A stretch of 64,000 nt of DNA from contig NZ_GG697141.2 of NCBI RefSeq assembly GCF_000155955.1, positions 1,078,588 through 1,142,587 of the forward strand. The letters are read 5' to 3'. Positions 6,230-64,000 of this stretch are shown here, piece by piece (position 1 is the stretch's first letter; each line of letters starts with the position of its first letter). Under the pieces are notes generated by a model. The model made no database searches. It saw only the letters and a list, made by a program, of their open reading frames with translations, and was not told the DNA's origin. The translations under genes were made by a program, and so were the position numbers. Origin of the DNA: Mitsuokella multacida DSM 20544. GTDB lineage: Bacteria > Bacillota > Negativicutes > Selenomonadales > Selenomonadaceae.

Positions 6230-6253
6230 AAAAAGTCCAGCGCTGGACTTTTT
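6230..6253. terminator. dispersed palindrome family 1, copy 2
   Basis: Arms AAAAAGTCCAG and CTGGACTTTTT. It lies directly after the stop of the MarR gene (minus strand), where it serves as that gene's terminator. Confidence 0.75.
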
Positions 6254-8846: not shown

Positions 8847-9110
8847 ATGACGGCAGCAGCCCTGTTCCCGGAAAAGCAGGAAGCAGCGATCCCGAATACG
8901 GGCTCGGCTCAGGACATCGCGGCCATCAAGAAAGTCATCGGCCAATATGCGGATTCCATCACGAATTACAACCTGAAGGAAGCGGAGCGCATCTGGCAGA
9001 CGGACGATCGCACGATGTTCATCCAACCGCGCGGCAATGAGTACGGCTGGAAGATTGTCCATGTCCACTATTCGCAGATGCCGATCACGGGAGCAAAGCA
9101 GGGATTCTGA
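8847..9110 (+). pseudogene. NTF2/SnoaL-like protein with an internal deletion
   Basis: The frame encodes about 87 residues (ATG 8847; TTG 8841 is possible). The front part (AIKKVIGQYADSITNYN...) is the N-terminal helix region of NTF2/SnoaL-like proteins, ending FIQPRGNEYGW. It then jumps straight to the family's C-terminal strand GWKIVHVHYSQMP. The usual length is about 130-150 residues, so roughly 50-60 central residues are missing in frame, apparently by recombination across the GGCTGG (Gly-Trp) codons near 9046. A strong AGGAGG (8813-8818) lies too far from the ATG, suggesting the original start was also altered. It is first in the sirtuin operon. Confidence 0.6.
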
Positions 9111-9149
9111 TGTCGACCCAAGAACTAGAGAGAAGAAGAGGTGGTAACC

Positions 9150-10115
9150 ATGTTTGGTTTTTCCGATAAAGTCATATATCCAGAAGCCGCTCCCTATGAG
9201 GAACAGCTGGCGGTGCTGCGGGAGAAGCTCGCGCAGGCGGATGCTCTGCTCGTGGGGGCCGGGGCGGGCCTCTCGACAGCAGCCGGACTATCGTACGGCG
9301 GTGCGCGCTTCCAGAAGTACTTTGCGGATTTTGCCGAGAAGTACGGCATCCGCGACATGTACACGGGTGGGTTCTACCCCTTCTCGAGCCCGGAGATCTA
9401 CTGGGCGTGGTGGAGCCGCCACATCTATTTCAATCGCTATGTCGATGCACCGAGCGATGTCTATCCGACCTTGCGGCATCTTGTCGAGGACAAGGACTAC
9501 TTCGTGCTGACGACAAATGTCGACCACCAGTTCCAGCGCAGCGGCTTCGACAAGCGGCGGCTCTTCTACACGCAGGGCGACTATGGACTGCTGCAGAGTG
9601 TACAGCCGGAAGTGGCAAAGACGTACGACAACCGCGAGATGGTCGAGGCCATGCTCGAGGCGCAGGGCTTCGTCCGTGGGGCAGACAGCATCTTTGAGGT
9701 GCCGTCATCGGGCAAGCTCAAGATGGTCGTGCCGAAAGAGCTCGTGCCGGTCTGTCCGGACGATGGCCGTGCGATGATGGTCAGCGTCCGCTGCGACGGG
9801 CGCTTCGTCGAGGACGATGGCTGGCATGCGGCGCAGGCGCGCTACAAGGCGTTCCTCGCCGCGCATGAAGACGATGCCATCCTCTATCTGGAGCTCGGCG
9901 TCGGACTCAACACGCCGGTCATCATCAAGTATCCGTTCTGGTACTACACGAAGATGAATCCGAACGCATTCTACACTAGCATCAACCTTAGCGGCGCAGC
10001 GTGTTCATCTTCCATCCGCAAGCGCAGCCTCTGCATCGAGGCCGATATCGGCAAGGTCCTGCACGACCTCTCCCGCATGGGGAAGGTGCCGTCTGGAGAA
10101 GGGGTGATCGTATGA
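9150..10115 (+). CDS. class M sirtuin (SirTM), predicted protein ADP-ribosyltransferase
   Basis: This 321-residue sirtuin starts at ATG 9150, 8 bases after AAGAGGTGG; the GTG at 9141 is less likely. The NAD-binding GAGAGLSTAAGLSYGG (residues 36-51) is present. The active-site stretch TTNVDHQFQ (121-129) keeps Asn123 and Asp125, but the catalytic His of deacetylase sirtuins is replaced by Gln142 (YTQGDYG). That replacement is the mark of SirTM enzymes, which ADP-ribosylate rather than deacylate. The zinc site looks incomplete (VCPDDG). It overlaps the macrodomain gene by 4 bases (ATGA). Known SirTM operons of Staphylococcus and Streptococcus also carry GcvH-L and LplA2; neither is here, so the target protein is unknown. 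Confidence 0.88.
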   Translation: MFGFSDKVIYPEAAPYEEQLAVLREKLAQADALLVGAGAGLSTAAGLSYGGARFQKYFADFAEKYGIRDMYTGGFYPFSSPEIYWAWWSRHIYFNRYVDAPSDVYPTLRHLVEDKDYFVLTTNVDHQFQRSGFDKRRLFYTQGDYGLLQSVQPEVAKTYDNREMVEAMLEAQGFVRGADSIFEVPSSGKLKMVVPKELVPVCPDDGRAMMVSVRCDGRFVEDDGWHAAQARYKAFLAAHEDDAILYLELGVGLNTPVIIKYPFWYYTKMNPNAFYTSINLSGAACSSSIRKRSLCIEADIGKVLHDLSRMGKVPSGEGVIV

Positions 10116-10900
10116 CACAGGAGGAACAGCGCCTCTGGCTCATCCGCTATCTGCAGCAGGAAATGCCGGAATATGCGCATTACCGTATCCCCGACGATGA
10201 AGAAGGGGAGTGGCATCTCCTGCGCGCACTCTTCAACGTCCGGCCGCCTGCGCCGGTGCCAATGGAGTTCCAGCGCATCGAAGGAGCGCTCTTGGAGGCA
10301 ATGACGGCGGCCAAGGGCATCGTCAATGGCATGGGGCTGTCCGCATCTAGCCTAGACCCTCGTCTGGTGCTCTGGCAGGGCGACATCACGCGACTGCGCA
10401 TCGATGCCATCGTCAATGCGGCCAACAGGCAGATGCTCGGCTGCTTCCTGCCAAACCATAACTGCATCGACAACATCGAGCAGACGATGGCAGGCGTCGA
10501 GATGCGCTACAACTGCTACAAACTCATGCAGGCACAGGGCCACGATGAGCCGACAGGCAAGGTCAAGATCACGTCTGGCTACCATCTTCCCGCGCGCTTC
10601 GTCCTGCACACGGTAGGTCCCATCGTGCAGGGCAGCCTGACAGATGAGCACCGCAGGCTTCTGGCCTCGTGCTACGAGTCCTGTCTCACGCTTGCAGCAG
10701 AGCATGGTCTCAAAGGCGTCGCCTTCTGCTGCATCTCGACGGGCGTCTTCCGCTTCCCGAAAGACGCGGCGGCCCATATCGCCGTCCGCACCGTGCAACA
10801 CTGGCTTGACGTGCATCCCGCAGCCTCCATCAAACGCGTCATCTTCGATGTCTTCGAGGATGCCGACCGTCGGATTTACGAAAATTTACTGAACGCATAA
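10112..10900 (+). CDS. zinc-dependent macrodomain ADP-ribosylhydrolase of the SirTM operon
   Basis: The protein has 262 residues. An N-terminal helical extension (1-80) is followed by the macrodomain: QGDITRLRIDAIVNAAN (89-105) and a substrate-loop stretch ISTGVFRFP. The segment GCFLPNHNCIDN (110-121) has C111, H116 and C118, the zinc-binding pattern of SirTM-linked macrodomains. Such proteins remove the ADP-ribose added by the adjacent sirtuin. The 4-base overlap with the sirtuin implies coupled translation. An intrinsic terminator follows the stop. Confidence 0.88.
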   Translation: MTQEEQRLWLIRYLQQEMPEYAHYRIPDDEEGEWHLLRALFNVRPPAPVPMEFQRIEGALLEAMTAAKGIVNGMGLSASSLDPRLVLWQGDITRLRIDAIVNAANRQMLGCFLPNHNCIDNIEQTMAGVEMRYNCYKLMQAQGHDEPTGKVKITSGYHLPARFVLHTVGPIVQGSLTDEHRRLLASCYESCLTLAAEHGLKGVAFCCISTGVFRFPKDAAAHIAVRTVQHWLDVHPAASIKRVIFDVFEDADRRIYENLLNA

Positions 10901-10908
10901 TGTCAATA

Positions 10909-10942
10909 AAAAACGCCTGACCGTTTCGAGTCAGGCGTTTTT
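10909..10942. terminator. bidirectional terminator between macrodomain gene and parB
   Basis: AAAAACGCCTGA and TCAGGCGTTTTT form a 12-bp stem with a 10-base loop, serving the convergent genes on both sides. Confidence 0.85.
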
Positions 10943-10951
10943 GTATGATTT

Positions 10952-12040
10952 TTACTGCTGGAGCATCTTGCGGATGACCTGCTTCGTATGGTCGGACAGT
11001 CCGTCGGCGAGGTCGAGGGCCTGGTTCAGGAATTCCTTGAAGGCGTCGACTTCTTTGTGGTCGACGGCCAGTGGCACGAGGTCGAAGTTACTCGGCTTCG
11101 CGATCTTCGTCGCGACGAGGTACTCGAACTTCTCGCGCGGCTTGCGGCGGCCCTTGATGATGGCGTCGATTTCCTCTTTTGTCGTGACTTTCTTCATCAC
11201 GTAGCGCATGGCTGGATCCATGAGCAGGTGGTAGCGCTGCTCGTAGATGTACTCCTGCAGCTCCTGCGGGAGGTCGCAGAGCATGTTGGCGACGGCCTGC
11301 GTGATCTGGCGCTTGTCGTAGGCGTCGAGCAGCGGCGCGATGAGCTTCTCGAGGCGGCGGTAAAAGAAGACGGTCGAGCGGCTGACGCCGAAGAGCTTCG
11401 AGACGGCCGTGTTGACGTCGACGCCGGAGCCGTAGAAGGACTCTTCCTTCTCGAGGCGGGCCATCTCGCTGTAGCAGCGGACGCGGATGGCGGAGTCCTC
11501 CTTGGCACGCTGGGCGATGTTCGTCAGGATGACGATTCGGCGCGCCGTCGGCGCTGTGATCTGCCCGTGCTGGTAGACCTTGCAGGGAATGCGCAGGTAT
11601 TTCTCGTCGTGCGTGACTTCGTAGAGCTCATGGTAGACGAGCGTGCGCGTGTGGCCCCCGAGGATCATGTAGCTGCCGTCCTCCTGCTCCCAGACGGTGC
11701 AGGGATGCCAGAGGCCGTACTTGTAGATGGACTGGAAGATCAGCGCGTACTGGTCCGGCTGCGGACGGCTGAAGAAATTCCAATCATCCGGCGCGGGGTG
11801 AAGCTTATCAAGGTCGATGAGCTGCTCGTGATGTGCGGGCAGCAGCGTGTCGACGCGGGCGGGCTCCTCCGCGTGCTGCGGCGCGACGGCTGCGGCGGGC
11901 TTAGCCATCAGTTCCTTGAGCGCGGCGATGCGCTCCGGCGACATCGCGCTCGCGGCCGACGGCGCGCTGGACATGGCGCCGACGTCAGCAAAGTCCGGCG
12001 TCTTCTTGGTGGAGATGAAGAATGATTTTCGCTTAGCCAA
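10952..12040 (-). CDS. parB: ParB/Spo0J-family partition protein
   Basis: The 362-residue protein has a flexible N-terminus (1-70), then the ParB N domain (LIDLDKLHPAPDDWNFFSRP, LGGHTRTLVYHELY, the box II-like nucleotide-binding segment) and a central helix-turn-helix (GVDVNTAVSKLFGVSRSTVFFYRRLEKL). It would bind a centromere and stimulate the ParA ATPase. The start appears to be TTG at 12040: an in-frame TGA lies just upstream and the next Met is 22 residues in. It overlaps the end of parA by 8 bases, so the pair is one operon. A terminator shared with the macrodomain gene follows. Confidence 0.85.
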   Translation of the reverse strand: MAKRKSFFISTKKTPDFADVGAMSSAPSAASAMSPERIAALKELMAKPAAAVAPQHAEEPARVDTLLPAHHEQLIDLDKLHPAPDDWNFFSRPQPDQYALIFQSIYKYGLWHPCTVWEQEDGSYMILGGHTRTLVYHELYEVTHDEKYLRIPCKVYQHGQITAPTARRIVILTNIAQRAKEDSAIRVRCYSEMARLEKEESFYGSGVDVNTAVSKLFGVSRSTVFFYRRLEKLIAPLLDAYDKRQITQAVANMLCDLPQELQEYIYEQRYHLLMDPAMRYVMKKVTTKEEIDAIIKGRRKPREKFEYLVATKIAKPSNFDLVPLAVDHKEVDAFKEFLNQALDLADGLSDHTKQVIRKMLQQ

Positions 12041-13007
12041 TTCGAGTCAATACCTCCTCTACGAGTTTGGAATAGGCGCGCGTCGCCTTGCCCGACGGAT
12101 AGGCTTCCGTGACGGGCAGATGGCGGCTCTCGGCCTTGTGGGCGTCCTCGGAATGGGGGACGATGGTCTCGAGAATCAACGGCGCGTACTTCGCACGGAT
12201 CTGCGGCACGTAGTCGTGCGCGACAGCTGTGCGCATGTTGACGGCCTCGAAGAAGATGCCCGCGACACAGAGGTCGGGATTCGCATGACGGATTTTCGAA
12301 GCGTAGCCGAGCACCGTGTCGACGCCATCGACGGAGTCGTCGGCCGCATTGACCGGGATCATGAGGTACTGCACGGCGCGCATGATCTGGGCAATCTCAT
12401 TGTCGACGGCCGGACGGCAGTCGAAGATGATGTAGTCGTAGAGGCCATCGAGCTCCTGTATGAGCACCTTGTAGGCATTGATGCCGAGCATGACCGCCTC
12501 GAGAAGCGTCTTCGTCGTGGCCGTGTAGCGGTCGTCGTTCGGGATGATGTCGACATTCTTGTTCTGCGTGGCGAGCACGAAATCGCGGAGCGGCTTCGGG
12601 TCGTCCGACAGGATGTTGAGCACCGCCGCGCTCAGCTGGACCGCGCCGCGGTATTCCTTCGGATGGTAGCCAAAGCGCTTCGAGAGATTGCCCTGCGGGT
12701 CCGCGTCGATGAGCAGGACCTTGTAGTCCCGGCGCCCCAAGAGGTCCGCAAAGGCCGCCGCCGAAGTCGTCTTGCCGACGCCGCCTTTGTGTGAACAGAA
12801 TGCGATAGTCTTAGCCATAAAGATAGATACTCCTTCTCCGCCGCTCGCGAGAACGCGGCCTCTGTACTTCTGGACCAAGAGCTCGAGCGCCTCGTCGACG
12901 AGTGCCGTCTTCTGTGTGCCCGTCACCTCCGCAATGCGGTCGAGCTTCTCGTACAGCACCTTCGACACCGACGTCGAGAACCGGGTCCGGGGATTGTTTC
13001 GCGACAT
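12033..13007 (-). CDS. parA: ParA-family partition ATPase with an N-terminal ribbon-helix-helix domain
   Basis: From the ATG at 13007 the protein has 324 residues. Residues 1-50 (RFSTSVSKVLYEKLDRIAEV, then TALVDEALELLVQKY) look like a CopG-type ribbon-helix-helix DNA-binding domain. After a short linker comes a complete ParA with deviant Walker A SHKGGVGKTTSAAA, LLIDADPQGNLSKRFG and a FDCRPA Walker B-like segment. A second ATG at 12818, with GGAG 11 bases before it, would give a classic short ParA, so both forms may be made. An ATG at 13055 is also in frame. The fusion is unusual: small RHH centromere-binding proteins normally have their own gene. Confidence 0.85.
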   Translation of the reverse strand: MSRNNPRTRFSTSVSKVLYEKLDRIAEVTGTQKTALVDEALELLVQKYRGRVLASGGEGVSIFMAKTIAFCSHKGGVGKTTSAAAFADLLGRRDYKVLLIDADPQGNLSKRFGYHPKEYRGAVQLSAAVLNILSDDPKPLRDFVLATQNKNVDIIPNDDRYTATTKTLLEAVMLGINAYKVLIQELDGLYDYIIFDCRPAVDNEIAQIMRAVQYLMIPVNAADDSVDGVDTVLGYASKIRHANPDLCVAGIFFEAVNMRTAVAHDYVPQIRAKYAPLILETIVPHSEDAHKAESRHLPVTEAYPSGKATRAYSKLVEEVLTRIG

Positions 13008-13083
13008 ACTCCCCCTGCTTCCTGAAAATCTTCGAGTTCGTGTACGGCTCTGCATTATTACAGTACAAAACCTTCATACAAAA

Positions 13084-13092
13084 ATTATACCA
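13084..13092 (-). promoter_or_regulatory. extended -10 promoter of the par operon
   Basis: Minus-strand TGGTATAAT (TGn plus a perfect -10) lies about 80 bases before the parA start. The repeat array at 13148-13236 is immediately upstream of it. Confidence 0.6.
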
Positions 13093-13121
13093 TCTTCGCG
13101 GGGGAAAGACAATGCAGATGC

Positions 13122-13147
13122 AAAAAAGTCCAGTGCTGGACTTTTTT
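13122..13147. terminator. dispersed palindrome family 1, copy 3
   Basis: Six-A and six-T flanks around the AGTCCAG/CTGGACT stem. It lies between the par promoter and the GTCGGACT array. Confidence 0.65.
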
Positions 13148-13236
13148 GTCGGACTGAACTTTTTGAGGTTCGTATGGTCGGACTGTCGGACTGTGGTCAG
13201 ACTATCGTCGGACGACTGTCGGACTTTTGCCGAACT
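13148..13236. repeat. phased GTCGGACT direct repeats, candidate centromere (parS)
   Basis: GTCGGACT or one-base variants start at 13148, 13177, 13185, 13196, 13207 and 13218, with a weaker copy (GCCGAACT) at 13229. From 13185 on the interval is exactly 11 bp, one helical turn. Short direct repeats at helical spacing are the usual centromere sites of RHH partition proteins (for example R1 parC). The array sits directly upstream of an operon whose ParA carries an RHH domain. Confidence 0.65.
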
Positions 13237-13250
13237 CCGATGGTCGTGGC

Positions 13251-14480
13251 TCAGTCGCTTGCGAGCTTGCGCACGGCGGCAGAGAGCAGCTCGGTACCGC
13301 GCACGATGTCCTCGAGCTTGGCAAATTCTGCTGGGTTGTGACTGATGCCCGCGCGGCACGGGATGAACAGCATAGCCGTTGGCGCATAGTCGGCCCAGTG
13401 CATGCTGTCGTGGCCCGCGCCGCTCATCATCCGGCGGCAGGGAATGGCGAGCTCCTTGGCCGTCTCCTCGAGCAGATCGACGAGTGCCGCGTCCATGCGG
13501 GCTGGCTGCTCCTTGCTGACTGGTTCGATGTCGTAGGTCAGCTGACGCCGCTCAGCGATGGCCTCGATATCTTGGCGGACTGCCTGCTCGACGGCATCCT
13601 TGGCCTCTGCGGAGATACTGCGGATGTCGACGCCAATCCGGACTTCACCCGGGATGACATTCATGACGCCCGGCGTGACTTGCAGGATGCCGACCGTGCC
13701 GACAACAGGCGCTTCTGTGTAAGACGAGGCCTCGCGCTCAACGGCTAGCACGGCTTCTGACGCCGCGCAGAGCCCATCGTGGCGCAGGTTCATTGGTGTC
13801 GCACCGCTGTGATCGGCACTGCCGTGGAAGTTGACGTAGAAGCGCGTCGGCGCTGCAATGCCCGTGACGAGGCCGATGGGCAGGCCCTCATGCTCGAGGA
13901 CTTTGCCCTGCTCGATGTGGAGCTCGAGGAAGGCGCGCAGGGGCCTCGTGTACCGGGCCGACTCGATATGGTCAGGGGCAAGATGACGGCTCTTGAGCAC
14001 CTCGTAGAGCGTATGGCCTTCCTTGTCGTGCAATCGCAACAGGTCATCGTGCGAGAGCTCGCCGCGCATGGCCCGACTGCCGAGCGTCGCCGCCGAGAAG
14101 CGGCTCGACTCCTCACAGAGGAACAAGACGACCTCAAGCGGCCTCTGCGGCGTGAAGCCGTCCTCCTGCATCGAGCGGACCGTCTCGATCGCCGCAAGGA
14201 TACCGACAATGCCGTCGAAGTTGCCGCCTTCCGGCACACTGTCGCCATGCGAACCGAACATAACAGCGGGCAAGCTCTCATCTGCGCCCTTCACATGGCC
14301 GATGACATTGCCGAAGGCATCCTCACGCAGCTCCATGCCCGCCTCGCGCATCAAGCCCATCAGATACGCGCGCCCCTGCCAATCCGCATCCGTGAACGCC
14401 AGCCGGTTGATGCCCTTCCCCGGCGCCGTGATGTCCTGCAGATCTGCGAGTTGCTGCTGCAAGCGCGTTCTTGAAATCAT
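13251..14480 (-). CDS. M20-family amidase/hydantoinase (allantoate amidohydrolase or N-carbamoyl-amino-acid hydrolase)
   Basis: The protein has 409 residues from ATG 14480, 8 bases after GGGAGG. Metal-binding features of the binuclear zinc family are visible: MFGSHGDSVPEGGNFDGIVG (His and bridging Asp), CEESSRFSAATLGSRAM (the Glu pair), LELHIEQGKVLE, and a late MSGAGHDSMH His. About 410 residues is normal for allantoate amidohydrolases and L-N-carbamoylases. It removes ammonia or a carbamoyl group from ureido acids. It is divergent from the transporter/amidohydrolase pair at 14642-17276, suggesting a common amide-catabolism theme. The exact substrate is not decided. Confidence 0.85.
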   Translation of the reverse strand: MISRTRLQQQLADLQDITAPGKGINRLAFTDADWQGRAYLMGLMREAGMELREDAFGNVIGHVKGADESLPAVMFGSHGDSVPEGGNFDGIVGILAAIETVRSMQEDGFTPQRPLEVVLFLCEESSRFSAATLGSRAMRGELSHDDLLRLHDKEGHTLYEVLKSRHLAPDHIESARYTRPLRAFLELHIEQGKVLEHEGLPIGLVTGIAAPTRFYVNFHGSADHSGATPMNLRHDGLCAASEAVLAVEREASSYTEAPVVGTVGILQVTPGVMNVIPGEVRIGVDIRSISAEAKDAVEQAVRQDIEAIAERRQLTYDIEPVSKEQPARMDAALVDLLEETAKELAIPCRRMMSGAGHDSMHWADYAPTAMLFIPCRAGISHNPAEFAKLEDIVRGTELLSAAVRKLASD

Positions 14481-14565
14481 AAAAATACCTCCCATCTTAC
14501 AATGAAACTCCTATCTCGATCTTCTCTATATATTGTATACTTCTTCGAATCTCCTTTCGCCTTTC

Positions 14566-14595
14566 TTGACAATCATTATACCGCAATCCTATAAT
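14566..14595 (+). promoter_or_regulatory. sigma-70 promoter of the DcuC-like transporter
   Basis: TTGACA (14566-14571), an 18-base spacer, TATAAT (14590-14595). Confidence 0.75.
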
Positions 14596-14641
14596 AAACC
14601 AAATGGTATAATTACTTTTAATTATGAAAGGTGGAATCTGC

Positions 14642-15904
14642 ATGCTAACACTCATGCTGATTGTCGGTGCCATCATTGTCTGTGGTGTCGTCTACGCACT
14701 CGTCAAGGGTGCGGATGCGCGCATCACGCTGATTGGTTCCGGCATCCTCATGGCGGCCATCGGCGGTGTGCCAATGGCTGCTCTCGACGCTTTCGCAAAG
14801 AGCATGACGAACAGCGGTCTGATACAGGCCGTATGTTCGGTCATGGGCTTTGCGCTGGCGGTCCGCTTCACGGAATGCGATAAGCACCTGATCAATGCCA
14901 TGGCCTCCGTGATTTCGCGCGTCCGTTTCTTCCTGATTCCGGGCGTCGTCATCTGCACGTATCTCGTCAACATCGCGCTGCCGAGTGCCGCCGGCACGGC
15001 CGCTGCTGCCGGCGCCATCTTCATCCCGCTGCTCATGGCAGCAGGTGTCGGCCCGGCGCTCGCGGCAGCCGCCGTCAAATGCGGCACGTACGGCAGCATG
15101 CTGAATCCGGGCCTTGCGCACAACCCGTTCGTCGCTAAGATTGCCGGTGTCGATGTCATGGATGTCATCGGATTCCACTACAAGGCCAATCTCGCCTCCC
15201 TCGTCGTCGCGACCATCTGCATCACGGTCATCGCGCATGTGCTCAAGGAAGATAAAGGCCATGTCCCCGAGCATCTGCAGGTGGACAAGAACTTCAAGGT
15301 CAATTACCTCTACGCGCTGATGCCAGTCGTCCCGATCGTCATCCTGCTGCTCGGCTCGACCAAGATTGTCCCCCTCTTCAAGATGGGCGTGCCGCAGGCC
15401 ATGATCATCGGTGCTCTGCTGACGCTCGTCGTCACGCGCACGAAGCCGAAAGCGCTCTGCGATGCGTTCTTTGAGGGCATGGGCAAGGCGTACGGCAGCA
15501 TCATCGGTATCATCATCTCAGCTGGCGTCTTTGTTGCCGGCCTCACCTCAATTGGCCTCGTCAAATGGTTCATCGATGCGATGCTCAACAACCCGGCCAT
15601 CGTCAAGATCTGCGCCGCTTTTGGACCGTTCCTGCTCGGCTTGCTGACAGGCTCCGGCGATGCGGCGACCTTCGCCTTCAATGAGGCTATCACGCCGTAC
15701 GCACCAGACTTCGGTATGTCGCAGGTCCAGATGGGCAGTATGGCGACGCTCGGCGGCACGCTGGGCCGCACGATGTCGCCGATTGCCGGCGCGACCATCA
15801 TCTGCGCCGGTATCGCTGGTGTCAACCCGATGGAGATCACAAAACGCAATGCCATCCCGATGCTCTGCGCATTGACGGTCGGCATGCTGATCCTGCTCTT
15901 CTGA
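14642..15904 (+). CDS. DcuC-type anaerobic C4-dicarboxylate/anion transporter
   Basis: The 420-residue integral membrane protein starts at ATG 14642 after AAAGGTGG; the ORF extends to an ATG at 14624 without better support. It has about 11-12 hydrophobic segments, small-residue-rich loops such as PSAAGTAAAAGAIFIPLL and LNPGLAHNPFVAKIAG, and an internally repeated layout typical of the DcuC/ion-transporter superfamily. DcuC proteins exchange or excrete C4-dicarboxylates anaerobically. With amidohydrolases on both sides it may instead take up an acylated amino acid or ureido acid; this is inference. Confidence 0.8.
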   Translation: MLTLMLIVGAIIVCGVVYALVKGADARITLIGSGILMAAIGGVPMAALDAFAKSMTNSGLIQAVCSVMGFALAVRFTECDKHLINAMASVISRVRFFLIPGVVICTYLVNIALPSAAGTAAAAGAIFIPLLMAAGVGPALAAAAVKCGTYGSMLNPGLAHNPFVAKIAGVDVMDVIGFHYKANLASLVVATICITVIAHVLKEDKGHVPEHLQVDKNFKVNYLYALMPVVPIVILLLGSTKIVPLFKMGVPQAMIIGALLTLVVTRTKPKALCDAFFEGMGKAYGSIIGIIISAGVFVAGLTSIGLVKWFIDAMLNNPAIVKICAAFGPFLLGLLTGSGDAATFAFNEAITPYAPDFGMSQVQMGSMATLGGTLGRTMSPIAGATIICAGIAGVNPMEITKRNAIPMLCALTVGMLILLF

Positions 15905-15918
15905 TATACAGACAAGAC

Positions 15919-15946
15919 GAGGTGCTGCGGAGCGGCACCTCTTTTT
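15919..15946 (+). terminator. intergenic terminator between transporter and amidohydrolase
   Basis: GAGGTGC and GCACCTC stem followed by five T. It precedes the Shine-Dalgarno site of the next gene, so expression of that gene may be stepped down rather than abolished. Confidence 0.65.
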
Positions 15947-15962
15947 ATAAGGAGGAATCATT

Positions 15963-17276
<1,314 letters not shown>

Positions 17277-17312
17277 TACCTGCCATCACCACAACCGCAT
17301 CACGAGGCGAAC

Positions 17313-17388
17313 CGTCCGACTACCAGCCGACTCCTTCGTCATCTCAAAAGTCCAGTCCGACCTAAAAAGTCCAGTGCTGGACTTTTTT
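17313..17388. repeat. GTCGGAC half-sites and family 1 palindrome, copy 4
   Basis: Reverse-orientation GTCGGAC matches occur at 17313-17320 and 17354-17361, then the AAAAAGTCCAG/CTGGACTTTTT palindrome (17364-17387). It terminates the amidohydrolase transcript. The combination of this palindrome with GTCGGAC motifs also occurs at 13122-13236 and 43717-43842. Confidence 0.55.
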
Positions 17389-17455
17389 CATAGGAAAAAG
17401 ACTTCATCCATGATATAATATCCCTGTTCAGACAACAGAAAGGGGAATGTATTTC

Positions 17456-18610
17456 GTGATATCCGAAAAGAGACAACCAGGTGTGCCCGAGCAGCATGCA
17501 ACGCGGGCCATCTTTTTTGTCGGGGGATTTGGTGCGGCTTCATGGGCGCCGCTCGTGCCGCTCCTCAAGGCGCGGCTCGGCATCGCAGAGGACGTGCTCG
17601 GCATGCTGCTCTTATGCATCGGCATCGGCTCGCTGCTGACAATGCCGCTGTCGGGTGCGGCGGCAGTCCGACTCGGCTGCCGCAAGGTGCTGACAGCGGC
17701 GGGGATCGTCTACGCTGCTCTGCTGCTCTTGCTCTGCACAGTATCGTCGTTCGGCATGGCCGTGCCGCTGCTGCTGATCTTCGGCGCGACGATGGGCTGT
17801 ATCGATGTCGTCGTCAACATCCAGGCCGTCATCGTCGAGAACGCAGCGGGGCGCCGCCTCATGAGCGGCATGCATGCGCTCTGGAGTGTCGGCGGCTTTG
17901 CGGGGGCCGGGCTCTTCGGCATCTGGGTCGGCACCTTCTCGCTGACGCCGCTGCTCTCGACCATCATCGCGGCCGCCATCATGGTGCTCGTGACGCTCGC
18001 GGCCTCGCGCCATCTGCTGCCCTACGGCGGCGATGCCGGCGGCAAGCTGCTCGCGCTGCCGAAGGGCATCGTGACCTTCGTCGGCATCATCGCCTGCATC
18101 GCCTTCCTCGTCGAGGGCGCCATCATGGACTGGAGCGGTGTCTTCCTGACGACTGTGCGCCATTTCGACATGTCCCTCGCCGGAACGGCCTTCACCGTCT
18201 TCTCGGCGGCCATGCTGACGATGCGCCTGCTCGGCGACTGGACCGTGCAGAAACTCGGCCAGGAGCGCGTCGTCATCGGTGGCAGCCTGCTGGCCGTCGC
18301 CGGCTTCCTGCTCGTCATCTTCGCCGCTGAGCCTGCGCTGCTCTACCTCGGCTTCTTCGCCATCGGTATCGGCTGCGCCAACGTCGTGCCCGTCTTCTTC
18401 TCCCTGCTCGGCAAGCAGCGCGTCATGCCCGTCAGCCTCGCCGTGCCAGCCGTCAGCACGCTCGGCTACCTCGGCATTCTCATGGGCCCCGCCGTCATCG
18501 GCTTCATCGCCCATCAGACCAGCCTCTACACCGCCTTCGGCCTGCTCGCTTTCCTCGTGCTGCTGCAGTCCATCATCGCCGCCTATGTCTATCGTCATAT
18601 CTTAGATTGA
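17456..18610 (+). CDS. MFS transporter
   Basis: About 384 residues with 12 predicted membrane segments. GTG 17456 fits the AAAGGGGA ribosome site (9-base spacing) better than ATG 17447, which touches it. MLLLCIGIGSLLTMPLSGAAAVRLGCRKVL contains the MFS loop 2-3 signature. The sequence resembles the small fucose-permease-like/YbjJ-type MFS group, with unknown substrate. It is a single-gene unit between two intrinsic terminators. Confidence 0.8.
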   Translation: MISEKRQPGVPEQHATRAIFFVGGFGAASWAPLVPLLKARLGIAEDVLGMLLLCIGIGSLLTMPLSGAAAVRLGCRKVLTAAGIVYAALLLLLCTVSSFGMAVPLLLIFGATMGCIDVVVNIQAVIVENAAGRRLMSGMHALWSVGGFAGAGLFGIWVGTFSLTPLLSTIIAAAIMVLVTLAASRHLLPYGGDAGGKLLALPKGIVTFVGIIACIAFLVEGAIMDWSGVFLTTVRHFDMSLAGTAFTVFSAAMLTMRLLGDWTVQKLGQERVVIGGSLLAVAGFLLVIFAAEPALLYLGFFAIGIGCANVVPVFFSLLGKQRVMPVSLAVPAVSTLGYLGILMGPAVIGFIAHQTSLYTAFGLLAFLVLLQSIIAAYVYRHILD

Positions 18611-19804: not shown

Positions 19805-20077
19805 TACAATTCTCCAGACTTTATGTATGCAACAGAACGATGAGAGCGATTCACACGCTCATCTCCGTCTTGATTCGACAGAATGCCGCAAAATCCTGCT
19901 GACAGCTGCTACAGAGAACCCCAACGATGTTCCATCAAAAAGTCCAGTGCTGGACGTTTCGGGCGCCAAATTCAACCTTACTGGATACACAACAGCTGTT
20001 ATGGCAGGAAACTTTGAGCAGCATGGCGAATCGTATCCATACAGAATGATACGGAATTGTAACTATCGGAGGATGCG
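19805..20077. other. intergenic stretch with a damaged family 1 palindrome
   Basis: No gene is supported. A copy of the dispersed palindrome at 19937-19959 has lost its T-run on one side (CTGGACGTTTC). Confidence 0.45.
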
Positions 20078-38463: not shown

Positions 38464-38487
38464 AAAAAGTCCAGCACTGGACTTTTT
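38464..38487. terminator. dispersed palindrome family 1, copy 6
   Basis: Arms AAAAAGTCCAG and CTGGACTTTTT between the divergently placed Sel1 and ADP-ribosylglycohydrolase genes, so here it ends neither gene and may block read-through. Confidence 0.6.
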
Positions 38488-39828: not shown

Positions 39829-40374
39829 ATGAGCTTGAACGGGATCACGAAAGGTACGGAATTTGAGAGCATGATGAAGAGCCTGATGCAGGCAGAGGCC
39901 AATGGCGTCATGATGTACTACGCACTAGCGCAGCTCGCACGCGAGCAGGGCCTCGAAGATGTGGCAGAGGGTTTCATTGCTGCAGCCAATGAAGAGGCTG
40001 TCCACGCTGGCTTCTATGCCGTGCTCAATGGCAAATACCCGTCCGATTTCTGGGGCCTCGTGCGCACGGTACAGAAAGCAGAAGCGAACGGCGAAGCACA
40101 GGTCAAGGCGATTGCCGACAAAGTCCGCGCCGCCGGTTTTGCAGAAGCAGCCGATCAGATGGACGTCTTCGCACGTCAGGAAGGCGGCCACGGCGTCCGC
40201 CTGCAGGCCATGCTCGACAAGTACCAGCCGAAGAAAGCGGATACGACCGGCAAGAAAGTCTATGTCTGCCCCGTCTGCGGCTACGAATACGTCGGCGACA
40301 TCAACGACGAGGACGACTCCTACGTCTGCCCGCTCTGCGGCCAGCCGAAGAGCGCTTTCGTCCTGAAGAAGTAA
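39829..40374 (+). CDS. rubrerythrin
   Basis: The 181-residue protein starts at ATG 39829, 8 bases after AGGAGG; ATGs at 39823 and 39826 are closer. Residues 1-~140 form the ferritin-like diiron helical bundle (QAEANGVMMYYALAQLA, ANEEAVHAGFY, and RQEGGHGVRLQ at the last helix). The C-terminal rubredoxin domain has VCPVCGYEYVG and VCPLCGQPKSAF. It reduces hydrogen peroxide in anaerobes using electrons from rubredoxin or ferredoxin. A strong promoter precedes it, and the PAS-like gene at 40456 follows closely. Confidence 0.93.
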   Translation: MSLNGITKGTEFESMMKSLMQAEANGVMMYYALAQLAREQGLEDVAEGFIAAANEEAVHAGFYAVLNGKYPSDFWGLVRTVQKAEANGEAQVKAIADKVRAAGFAEAADQMDVFARQEGGHGVRLQAMLDKYQPKKADTTGKKVYVCPVCGYEYVGDINDEDDSYVCPLCGQPKSAFVLKK

Positions 40375-43716: not shown

Positions 43717-43842
43717 AAAAAGTCCAGCACCGGACTTTTTGCTGGTGCTGGACTTTTGGGTGGTGGTCGGGAGTCCGACTGTCGGCGTGCCGACTATCGG
43801 ATGGGGGGATGGTCGGACGGTCGGACTGCTGACGGTCGGGAG
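43717..43842. repeat. family 1 palindrome, copy 7, next to a GTCGGAC cluster
   Basis: The palindrome (43717-43740) is followed by a partial second copy (43741-43757) and GTCGG-type motifs at 43766, 43781, 43812, 43820 and 43835, with reverse AGTCCGAC at 43772. It repeats the association of motif types seen upstream of parA. Confidence 0.6.
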
Positions 43843-56534: not shown

Positions 56535-57920
56535 TCATTCAAAGAGCGAGTTGGTCTTCGGAGTGGGAATCTCGCCTGCCATCATCTTTCCGAGCACGAC
56601 CTGTGTCAGCAGGCGGTATTCGCGGTACGTCTTCTTGCGTGAGCAGGCATGCTCGCGGTTGAAGCCCCTGCGGCCGGCCAGATAGTCGAGCTGAGAAGCA
56701 TTGCGCTTCATGAAGGAGAGGAGATCCGACAGCGTCATGGCAGCGACATAGTCCTTAGCGTGCTTCAGGTAGAAATTTGCACGGTCCTGATTCTCTTCCT
56801 GCTCCTGCACTTCGCGCATGCGTTCCTCGAGCTGCTTATTCTCGATGCGAGCCATGCCTTTCTTCAAGGCTGTCTTCGTCTGATGCGATGCGCCAGCCCA
56901 ATCCTGCTTGACGGCTGCGATGAAATAGCGGCCGTATACATCCAGCTCCTTCTTCTTGCCCATGCGCTCGTCCTTGGTGATGCGGTCAAAGACGAGGTGG
57001 AAGTTGCTGACGATGCGGTCTTCCGGGATTCCGTCGAAGTTGTCCTTGATGTAGCTTGGCTCAAAGCCTTCTTCACAGGCCATACTGAAGAGGACGAGGA
57101 TGCGCTCGCTGAACTTCTCCCGCAGCTGCTTGACAAGTGCCGGTGCGAGATTGGGGAAGTAGGTATCCGCAATGGCCTGTTTGGTAAAGCCGAAGACAAT
57201 CGTCGTGGCCTTGCGGCCAGGCCCGCCGTCGTCATCGATGAAGAAGTCTTTGTACTTCGTACGGTTCCGGATTTCCTCGATGGAACCCGTGAGAACTTTC
57301 CGCTTGAATTCTTTGTAAGATGATTCAGGATAGATTCCGATTTCACTGCGAAACCGCTCGATTGAAAGTTCATGGATGTTCAGACAATCGAGATTGCGCA
57401 GATAAATAAAGAGGCGCATGGAGACAATCGTATCGAGTGCCAGGATGTCTTCGATGTCCATCGAGAGGTACGTTCCCTCGCGGAGATTGAACAGATACTG
57501 GTTGAGTCGTGGAGGGATGCTGACCTCAAGGATGTGGGTCTTGCGATTGTACGAGAGCTCTGAGATGAAATTGGCGTGGTAGATGTCTTGTTCTCCATTG
57601 TCATCCCCTCGCGACCGAAGGTCTATATAGTTCTGGGAGAGCTTGGTGAAGATCTCCGCGACCATCATACCGCGCGCCTTGCGTGCATCGATATTGAGCT
57701 TATCGGCAAAGCGGAGCGCATCGAAGACGTATGTCGTGCTCTGTTCTGGTACATGATTCTCATCCATCGAAGCAATGAAGAGATACCAAGCCTTGAGCTG
57801 GTTCTTGCTCAGTGTGTACTTTGCCGTAGCGAATTCCTGTGCAATTGTCATCGGGCCTGTATCCTTGGGGATCAGGAACACCGGGCGATGGACCAACTGC
57901 GTCTCTTCTTGTGCCGACAT
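56535..57920 (-). CDS. repB: plasmid replication initiator, Rep_3 (RepB) family
   Basis: The 461-residue protein starts at ATG 57920, 9 bases after AAAGGGG. The N-terminal half (AQEFATAKYTLSKNQLKAWYLF, SVSMRLFIYLRNLDCLNIHELSIERFR) has the tandem winged-helix layout of Rep_3 initiators. The C-terminus is a long charged coiled coil (KQLEERMREVQEQEENQDRA) and a basic tail. It would bind the iterons upstream (58077-58453), open the origin and limit copy number. It is somewhat longer than common RepB proteins. Confidence 0.9.
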   Translation of the reverse strand: MSAQEETQLVHRPVFLIPKDTGPMTIAQEFATAKYTLSKNQLKAWYLFIASMDENHVPEQSTTYVFDALRFADKLNIDARKARGMMVAEIFTKLSQNYIDLRSRGDDNGEQDIYHANFISELSYNRKTHILEVSIPPRLNQYLFNLREGTYLSMDIEDILALDTIVSMRLFIYLRNLDCLNIHELSIERFRSEIGIYPESSYKEFKRKVLTGSIEEIRNRTKYKDFFIDDDGGPGRKATTIVFGFTKQAIADTYFPNLAPALVKQLREKFSERILVLFSMACEEGFEPSYIKDNFDGIPEDRIVSNFHLVFDRITKDERMGKKKELDVYGRYFIAAVKQDWAGASHQTKTALKKGMARIENKQLEERMREVQEQEENQDRANFYLKHAKDYVAAMTLSDLLSFMKRNASQLDYLAGRRGFNREHACSRKKTYREYRLLTQVVLGKMMAGEIPTPKTNSLFE

Positions 57921-62412: not shown

Positions 62413-63075
62413 ATGCGCATACCCAATATCACGAATTACAAACCGAAAGAATTTGCCGCATTATTGAATGTCACGGTCAAAACGCTTCAACGCTGGGATC
62501 GTGAGAAGATATTGGTTGCAAATAGGACGCCCACGAATCGAAGATATTATACCTACGACCAGTACTTGCAATTCAAGGGCATCGAGAAAGATACGGATTC
62601 GCGTAAGATTGTTCTATATGCCAGGGTATCGAGCCGGAAGCAGGCAGATGATCTAGAGAACCAGGTGGATTTCCTCCAGCAATACGCGAATGCTAAAGGC
62701 TTGATTGTCGATACCATCGTCCGAGATTATGGCAGTGGTCTGAATTATAACCGTAAGAAATGGAATCAGCTCCTAGATGCTGTCATGGAAAATCAGGTCA
62801 GGATAATCCTCGTGTCACACCGCGATCGTTTTGTCCGATTCGGGTTCGATTGGTTTGAGCGGTTCTGCAAGAAGTTCAACGTGGAGATCGTGGTCGTGAA
62901 GAACGAGAAGCTGTCCCCGCAGGAAGAGCTGGTGCAGGATATCGTCAGTATACTTCATGTATTTTCTTGTCGGCTTTATGGGTTACGTAAGTACAAGAAG
63001 CAGATTGAAGGAGATGAGGAACTTGCTGAAGGCATTCAAGACAGAGCTCCGTCTCACCGAACGGCAGAAGGATAA
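62413..63075 (+). CDS. tnpA: IS607-family serine transposase (TnpA/OrfA)
   Basis: The start is ATG 62413, 8 bases after GGAGGG; 220 residues. A MerR-like helix-turn-helix (YKPKEFAALLNVTVKTLQRWDRE) is followed by the serine recombinase domain (VLYARVSSRKQADDLENQVD with the catalytic Ser, and VSHRDRFVRFGFDWFE). IS607 enzymes insert with little target specificity and no duplication. tnpB overlaps its 3' end. Confidence 0.92.
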   Translation: MRIPNITNYKPKEFAALLNVTVKTLQRWDREKILVANRTPTNRRYYTYDQYLQFKGIEKDTDSRKIVLYARVSSRKQADDLENQVDFLQQYANAKGLIVDTIVRDYGSGLNYNRKKWNQLLDAVMENQVRIILVSHRDRFVRFGFDWFERFCKKFNVEIVVVKNEKLSPQEELVQDIVSILHVFSCRLYGLRKYKKQIEGDEELAEGIQDRAPSHRTAEG

Positions 63076-64000
63076 AGTTCGCCGTTCACTCGGCATCTGC
63101 CGCTTTCTCGCGAACCAGTACATCGCCCGCAACATCTGGCTGTACCGCCTGTATCAGCGCGGCGTCCTCGATGAAAAACAGCGCCGTTTCGTTACCGCCA
63201 ATGACTTCGACAAGTACGTCAACCATGTGCTGAAGAAGAAATTCCCCTGGATAGACCAGTGCGGGTCCAAAGCGCGCAAGAAAATCCTCGTCAATGCGGA
63301 GCAGGCGTTCAGGCGTTTCTTCAAAGGACAGGCGCACTTCCCGCGCTTCAAGCGGAAAAACCAGCAGAACGTGAAGCTCTACTTCCCGAAGAACAATAAG
63401 GGCGATTGGACCATCTGGCGTCACAAGATACAGATTCCGACTATCGGCAAAGCGCGCCTGAAAGAATTTGGCTATCTGCCGCAGGGCGTGACCATCAAGA
63501 ATGGGCATGTCTCCTATAAAGCGGGTCGTTACTACGTCTCGGTCACAGCCGAGATTGAGGAGATGAGCCGCTATAACAATGACCTAGAGGCATCGTACCA
63601 TCCGCGGTCGGATGGCATCGGTGTGGACCTTGGTGTCAAATCGCTTGCCATTGTCAGCGACGGCAGGATTTTTGAGAATATCAATAGGACTTCCCGGGCC
63701 AGACGGCTCGAGAGGCGGCTGAGAAGAGAGCAGAGGCGTCTCAGCCGCAAGTACGAGATGCGAAAGAAGAAAGGTGGTAGTACTGCTACTGCCTCTGCAA
63801 ATATAGAGAAAAAGAAATTATCGGTACAGAGACTGCATCAGCGGCTGGCGAATCTCCGCCGCAATCACGAGAATCAGGTCATCCACGCACTGGTGGAGCA
63901 AAAACCACGCTTCATCACGGTGGAAGACCTCAACGTGACCGGCATGATAAAGAATCGTCATCTCTCGAAGGCAGTGTCAGATCAGCGCTTCTATTCCTTC
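63014..64000 (+). CDS. tnpB: TnpB RNA-guided nuclease of the IS607 element, N-terminal part
   Basis: The frame is open from ATG 63014 (ATG 62978 also in frame) to the window end, 329 residues. MRNLLKAFKTELRLTERQ and ICRFLANQYIARNIWLY match the TnpB N-terminus; the RuvC domain begins with GIGVDLGVKSLAIVSDG (catalytic Asp) and FITVEDLNVTGM (catalytic Glu). The zinc ribbon and last Asp lie beyond the window. It should cut DNA under guidance of an omega-RNA encoded at its 3' end. Confidence 0.92.
   Translation, partial: MRNLLKAFKTELRLTERQKDKVRRSLGICRFLANQYIARNIWLYRLYQRGVLDEKQRRFVTANDFDKYVNHVLKKKFPWIDQCGSKARKKILVNAEQAFRRFFKGQAHFPRFKRKNQQNVKLYFPKNNKGDWTIWRHKIQIPTIGKARLKEFGYLPQGVTIKNGHVSYKAGRYYVSVTAEIEEMSRYNNDLEASYHPRSDGIGVDLGVKSLAIVSDGRIFENINRTSRARRLERRLRREQRRLSRKYEMRKKKGGSTATASANIEKKKLSVQRLHQRLANLRRNHENQVIHALVEQKPRFITVEDLNVTGMIKNRHLSKAVSDQRFYSF

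Follow-up and report, generated by a model that had tools for sequence, protein, structure and literature searches.

Plasmid partition systems of type Ia, such as those of F and P1, have the gene order parA-parB and a palindromic parS, as does, with a probable parS, the locus described here. In type Ib systems, the ribbon-helix-helix (RHH) protein is a separate centromere-binding protein and no large ParB is present; RHH dimers bind sites of the size of a 7-bp pseudo-palindrome. The ParA protein of F represses its own operon, autorepression has been proposed for those of P1 and P7, and inverted repeats with a spacing of 26-29 bp have been shown or proposed for all three (PMC8465637, in part). 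In RK2, the two starts of incC have been called unusual, the reason for them being not known, and the word 'ribbon' does not occur in that study (PMC2666795).

The window (the whole stretch of DNA analysed, 64,000 nucleotides) corresponds to bases 1078588-1142587 of C6, a 1.48-Mb contig of a 2.58-Mb genome in 6 contigs. Because a Soj/Spo0J-like pair is present on another contig of the same genome, the parAB pair of the window represents a second system.

The fused ParA and its partner

12033-13007, minus strand: long ParA, RHH domain plus ParA ATPase, 324 aa (open frame, Pfam, AlphaFold2 and relatives)
12861-12989, minus strand: RHH_3 domain (PF12651), spanning residues 7-49 within the N-terminal 65 aa
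10952-12040, minus strand: ParB, 362 aa, overlapping the end of parA (ParB/Noc/KorB-like fold)

The first-pass annotation had described a parA frame that continues upstream without a stop into an RHH domain, and this description holds: between 13055 and 12033 on the minus strand the frame stays open, and it passes from RHH to ParA uninterrupted. The best long start is the ATG at 13005-13007, which is preceded by GGGGGAG and aligns with the starts chosen for the relatives. The domain search and structure prediction that had been proposed as checks identified RHH_3 (PF12651) in the N-terminal 65 residues at 36.9 bits (cut-off, 21.6; E = 3.7e-9), or 32 bits with the whole 340-aa ORF as the query, and two N-terminal helices (residues 16-29 and 33-55) followed by a Soj/ParA fold. 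The AlphaFold2 model, based on 20 aligned relatives, has a mean pLDDT of 87.5, its weak spots being residues 1-4 (<50) and the block 51-60 (average 65); the ribbon strand is not drawn in this monomer model. The remainder of the protein matches AAA_31/CbiA in Pfam and is a complete ParA, and ParA and Soj were top-ranked by Foldseek, with delta (2oze) also among the matches, so that Pfam, AlphaFold2 and Foldseek agree on a Walker ATPase of the ParA type. A sequence search of the PDB with the RHH domain gave seven matches at E values up to 10, the sole RHH protein among them being CopG (E = 0.9).

The nearest named relatives of the long ParA are found in Selenomonas (family Selenomonadaceae, class Negativicutes). 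The RHH-ParA protein is 73% identical in S. ruminis, 73% in S. ruminantium ATCC 12561 and 62% in G176, all with the same frame, which more distant copies also share. Of 18 matches, 17 contain no stop, and the single stop in the other lies upstream of the start that is used. By profile search, the fusion is present in at least 25 loci of 19 of the 380 genomes of the class, with a profile match from model position 14 or earlier and no internal stop as the criteria. A sequencing artefact was therefore dropped as the source of the fusion, the frame being kept in the relatives. The RHH start of the 25th locus, in G183, is damaged; the other 24 distinct loci that were read, this one included, form 15 clusters at 80% identity. 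All 24 are continuous, and the separate, stop-terminated RHH gene that the first-pass annotation had named as the sign of an artefact is found in none of them. All fusion loci among the matches listed belong to one family (f1).

With an RHH profile built from our own alignment, the domain was detected in 18 of 19 positive-set loci, 17 of them from lineages used to build it. The match in L180 was weak (E = 3e-5), L179, which is not a fusion, gave none, and nothing below an E value of 0.74 was obtained in 90 comparison loci. ParB relatives are paired with an RHH-less ParA in L118, L119, L120 and L123. Two ParA relatives were identified in viral contigs (26 and 30% identity), and 112 phage records match, every one at <60% identity. 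In literature searched at the level of titles and abstract openings, no description of an RHH-ParA fusion was found, a depth at which absence from print is not established.

The partner gene encodes a full ParB, as had been noted at first pass. Foldseek matches of its predicted model include Noc, ParB, Spo0J and KorB, which assigns it by fold to the large ParB proteins with a CTPase-like domain and a helix-turn-helix (HTH). No Pfam ParB model matched it above the cut-off, and its match to TIGR03764 is far under the cut-off of that model. The ParB of S. ruminis has exactly the same putative recognition helix, SRSTVFFYRRL, the position of which was assigned by eye.

12033-12818, minus strand: predicted second product, short ParA, 261 aa (internal ATG; junction start codon kept in the clusters)
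12830-12839, minus strand: internal Shine-Dalgarno-like (SD-like) sequence GGAGAAGGAG, preceding the internal ATG

An internal start that could yield a normal ParA had also been proposed, and the ATG at 12816-12818, which follows GGAGAAGGAG, would indeed give an ordinary ParA of 261 residues. A start codon lies at the junction, 10-19 codons before Walker A, in each of the 15 clusters (ATG in 14 and GTG in 1), and a second, short ParA is thus likely to be made from the internal start. Methionine at positions -19 to -10 before Walker A was found in 14 of 15 clusters compared with 3.1 expected (P = 1.7e-9, a value that presumes independent clusters and is too small, as the clusters are related). 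The gene of pSRC2 is annotated from the internal start in its plasmid record, and that of pSRC1 from the long start.

The mean strength of SD-like pairing is about -8.2 kcal/mol at the internal starts and about -8.4 kcal/mol at the long ones. Pairing at the internal start exceeds that at other in-frame positions in 10 of 15 clusters (P <= 0.02). Two in-frame starts with ribosome-binding sequences are therefore present, as in IncC1/IncC2, the internal one not being above the synonymous null: compared with synonymous recodings of the same residues, its pairing was not stronger (z = -1.07; 137 of 1000 nulls as low). The internal SD may thus be an amino-acid by-product, and synonymous selection for it was dropped as not significant. 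A single product, the long fused ParA, with the internal start as a by-product of residues at the helix end, is a possible but rather unlikely reading. The synonymous null agrees with it; the start codon in 15 of 15 clusters (the GTG one chosen post hoc), the variable distance to Walker A and the several dissimilar junction sequences (FMAKT, SMEQE, LMDHK, TMVDE and KMVAK) argue against it and for the two forms of ParA.

Promoter repeat, palindromes and GTCNGAC boxes

13084-13112, minus strand: promoter TTGTCT-17-TATAAT, 10 of 12 consensus positions
13036-13071, minus strand: probable operator, wide inverted repeat GTTTTGTAC...GTACACGAAC, shared with relatives

Directly downstream of the promoter are GTTTTGTAC, a 17-base spacer and GTACACGAAC. 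At the promoters of L159, L007 and L160, the same 9-mer forms one arm of an inverted repeat whose spacer has 16 bases, and GTTTTGTAC-N16-GTAC(A/G)AAAC is located near the promoters of S. ruminis, ATCC 12561 and G176. Within the window there is a single exact GTTTTGTAC, and in the 16.0-kb and 5.7-kb loci it occurs at the two arms and nowhere else; in the pSRC1-like group, which has a different ribbon sequence, ACTTAATTAAGT is found at the promoter instead. The arms in the window are imperfect, with a spacer of 17 rather than 16 bases and one arm agreeing at 7 of 10 bases (by eye). The repeat at 13036-13071 is a probable operator for the long ParA, and a better one than the array described below. 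Its presence at the promoters of relatives fits autorepression by the long ParA, and we infer from this conservation that the protein may repress its own promoter, as the first-pass annotation had suggested.

13121-13148, unstranded: probable parS palindrome beside the par promoter; variants flank parB in relatives
1183-1202, unstranded: parS-like copy
6232-6251, unstranded: parS-like copy
17366-17385, unstranded: parS-like copy, with a AGTCCGAC box beginning 12 bp ahead
19939-19958, unstranded: parS-like copy, one mismatch
38466-38485, unstranded: parS-like copy
43719-43738, unstranded: parS-like copy; three GTCNGAC boxes lie no more than about 110 bp away
13148-13236, unstranded: GTCNGAC array, probable parS accessory, with boxes at 13148, 13177, 13185, 13196, 13207, 13218 and, weak, 13229

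In the window, AAAAAAGTCCAGTGCTGGACTTTTTT precedes the par promoter, and AAAAAGTCYAACGTYRGACTTTTT was seen by eye past the downstream end of parB in the three nearest relatives. The pattern AAAGTCYARCRYYRGACTTT, derived from four sites (that of the window and one beside parB in each of G158, G145 and G176), was found in 6 of 189 genomes of the family, the reversed control giving 0. Its 24 sites are distributed to this genome (9), G176 (6), G145 (3), G158 (2), G173 (2) and G001 (2). This genome, G158, G145 and G176 match by construction, which does not apply to 20 further copies (8 here, 5 in G176, 2 in G145, 1 in G158, and 2 each in G001 and G173). All nine exact copies in this genome are located within 75 kb around parAB (C6:1047147-1122325), and when up to two mismatches are allowed, 13 palindromes are found in a 160-kb stretch, none of them beyond the 75-kb span. 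All six copies in G176 lie on the parAB contig, and one of the three in G145 is on another contig. Only six of the 24 exact palindromes adjoin parB, parA or rep. In L159 and L007 a second palindrome follows rep, about 105 bp beyond the point at which its match ends. The genomes with a ParB of at least 50% identity are the same four that were used for the pattern; among 21 other genomes with weaker ParB matches, the pattern is present in G001 and G173 and absent in 19. A scan of palindromic words for a shared parS produced an uninformative ranking. Because the copies cluster around parAB and are carried by genomes with a similar ParB, and in view of the helix and fold of ParB, the palindrome is probably parS.

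Several other palindromes were noted. G173 contains two perfect copies (C53:5341 and C106:5031), yet its own ParB proteins are only 29-35% identical. In G176, four of the six palindromes of the contig are gathered within about 700 bp (G176:C22:9932-10636, L218), with GTGGGTGG-rich flanks. Upstream of RHH-ParA in L140 (G024) are two TGTCTCCA-NN-TGGAGACA palindromes and a close third, perhaps another type of parS, and L142 and L143 have in common a 27-bp palindrome, AATTCGGGATGAA-T-TTCATCCCGAATT, located some 112-116 bp ahead of the RHH-ParA start.

The first-pass annotation had described repeats at 11-bp spacing upstream of the promoter and had suggested that they may be bound by the RHH domain. 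The spacing stands in part: the units at 13185, 13196 (GTCAGACT), 13207 (GTCGGACG), 13218 and 13229 (GCCGAACT, weak) follow one another at intervals of exactly 11 bp, but additional exact copies at 13148 and 13177 (spacing, 29 and 8 bp) break the phase, and the array is thus not purely an 11-bp array. Six GTCNGAC boxes are present between 13148 and 13224, compared with a maximum of 2 per 100 bp in 200 simulated first-order Markov windows of 64 kb. In the 160-kb stretch there are 62 boxes, 21 of which are no farther than about 200 bp from one of the 13 palindromes. When the par-promoter site is left out, 15 boxes remain within this distance of the other 12 (P = 0.0002, 5000 random placements; P = 0.0026 against 10000 intergenic placements, or 0.0001 if these avoid the array). 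Because of this enrichment beside the other palindromes, the array looks like an accessory of the centromere that accompanies the parS sites and not the promoter itself, and ParB is favoured over ParA as the protein that would hold it. Half-sites of the form YGGACTT are not enriched near the palindromes (4 versus 1.9, P = 0.16); the boxes are therefore not plainly halves of parS, and these half-sites were dropped as the basis of the array. Conservation of the array was likewise dropped: the GTCGGACT array was not found upstream in 22 relatives, in which two single 1-mismatch matches, both in L144, were obtained.

That the array is a tandem repeat in decay, or debris left by recombination where the amidohydrolase gene ends, and is devoid of binding function is unlikely, although this reading has points in its favour: the unit spacing varies both within the array (11 and 8 bp) and between species (about 8 bp in G001, the sister species), and parAB has been deleted in G001 at these very repeats. 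The same boxes recur, however, beside distant palindromes at the P values given above, and a pair of them is retained beside the orthologous palindrome in G001. Binding of the boxes by the RHH domain of the long ParA, which would then touch the centromere directly beside ParB, is less probable still. The boxes are 7-bp pseudo-palindromes spaced by 8 or 11 bp, and 9 of the 13 palindromes have at least one of them at a distance of up to about 200 bp (4 have none). The claim nevertheless fits poorly with boxes that are enriched far from the promoter, with relatives whose 73% identical RHH-ParA accompanies the palindrome and no boxes (in the S. ruminis locus GTCNGAC is nearly absent, with 1 in 16 kb), and with a promoter repeat that is shared with those relatives and differs in sequence. 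We give slightly less weight again to the fuller version, in which ParA sits with its own RHH domain on boxes beside parS, flanking ParB, and the short form patrols the nucleoid; if true, it would represent a two-form ParA with a centromere-anchored subunit. Least probable is that the palindromes are bidirectional terminators and not parS, a reading that the layout of A-run, stem and T-run and the location of 12 of 13 palindromes outside ORFs of at least 150 aa would suit, but which is opposed by a simple consensus terminator scan of 12750-13300 that found none, by the restriction of the copies to 75 kb here and to 6 of 189 genomes, and by the L159 palindrome, which comes after another hairpin behind parB.

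The surrounding segment and the sister species

56535-57920, minus strand: plasmid replication initiator (Rep3), 42% identical to Rep of pSRC2
62956-64000, plus strand: right-hand IS605/TnpB copy (OrfB_IS605), running past the window and bracketing the plasmid-derived segment
C6:1043312-1044782, outside the window: left-hand IS605/TnpB copy, in direct orientation relative to the right copy

The Rep3 initiator, which is of plasmid type, is located 43 kb away from parAB inside a chromosomal contig. A segment of ~97 kb (C6:1044.8-1141.5 kb) is bracketed by two direct IS605/TnpB copies that are 91.9% identical over 1477 bp, with chromosomal sequence outside them: sequence conserved in G001 or G002 stops at 1042618 on the left and restarts at 1143008 on the right (G002). 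G001 and G002 both retain the left flank; the right flank was found in G002 alone, and the flanks lie on different contigs. The simplest reading of this arrangement is that a Rep3-type plasmid of ~97 kb was integrated between the IS605/TnpB copies, with recombination of the IS copies as the route; an assembly join at these copies, instead of true integration, is the alternative. Beside parB, at 9141-10900 on the plus strand, a 324-aa ORF overlaps a 299-aa ORF, a pair that we take to be, apparently, a sirtuin and a macro-domain protein; neither G001 nor G002 has a match to the second. No Rfam RNA family matched in 9000-18000.

G001 lacks parAB at this place: a 43-bp parB tail is joined to GTCGGAC repeats, and the same amidohydrolase gene adjoins. 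The scar of the deletion, at L156:15245-15320 (G001:C12 about 40244-40319), consists of the parB 3' end and GTCGGAC repeats; recombination at short GTCGGAC matches is its probable origin. A large part of this gene set, rep included, is found in G001 on a 64-kb contig in a circularly permuted order with inversions; the ends of this contig do not overlap, so that circularity is not shown. Five of the 13 sites can be aligned with G001 across the palindrome. The palindrome is present at three (two perfect and one with 3 mismatches), and at the other two (1084819 and 1095953) no palindrome within 4 mismatches was identified, a loss at some of these few sites that absence of ParB would predict. In this sister species, the decay of parS may thus be traced. 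The 13 predicted sites in one genome, together with those on contigs of relatives, provide a test set for the parS prediction.

Comparison with known partition systems

The explanation that we consider reasonably probable as a whole is a plasmid ParABS system in which an RHH domain has replaced the HTH domain of type Ia, with autorepression, two forms of ParA and dispersed parS. A small RHH domain would stand where type Ia ParA has its HTH domain, and the long RHH-ParA would bind, in dimeric or tetrameric form, the inverted repeat at 13036-13071 and repress the operon. The short ParA from the same frame would be most of the motor. ParB would bind the palindromic parS, in about 13 copies over 75 kb with one beside the par promoter, and the GTCGGACT array would belong to that parS as an accessory, with ParB the protein most likely to contact it. 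All of this would be carried by an integrated Rep3-type plasmid of about 97 kb between IS605/TnpB copies. Of the mixed design proposed at first pass, the fusion, the possible short ParA, the ParB and the inferred repression are supported, and the array as an RHH site is not supported in that form.

The type Ia systems of F and P1 likewise have an N-terminal DNA-binding domain on a long ParA, a large ParB and a wide inverted repeat at the promoter (PMC8465637, in part). They differ in that the domain is an HTH domain of ~100 residues there and an RHH domain of ~45 residues here (RHH_3, 43 matched residues), and in that this locus has an internal start and many dispersed parS-like sites. The type Ib systems (delta-omega of pSM19035 and ParFG) likewise use an RHH fold with a ParA, and delta was among the structural matches noted above; here, in contrast, the RHH domain is carried by ParA and a large ParB is present, and a short ParA with a separate small RHH protein was found in none of the 24 distinct loci. 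Because neither the HTH domain of type Ia nor the separate RHH protein of type Ib is found, the system is filed as a variant. The S. ruminantium plasmids pSRC1 and pSRC2 likewise encode an RHH-ParA fusion followed by ParB and a replication initiator, but with 32-38% identity and different promoter and palindrome sequences.

In RK2, IncC1 and IncC2 are likewise long and short ParA forms from alternative starts in one parA frame, and the ParB partner is KorB, which is among the fold matches of the ParB described here; unlike what is proposed for the RHH domain here, the N-terminal domain of IncC1 does not bind DNA alone (PMC2666795, in part), and korA occupies another frame of incC. By analogy, the system may work in the manner of a type Ia ParABS, and its two starts resemble those of IncC1/IncC2. 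HTH domains are known from long ParA proteins; in the present case, another DNA-binding fold is found at the same place in one family, together with an in-frame second start. As an apparently independent case of two starts, this family may allow the reason for the starts of RK2 incC to be approached by comparison.
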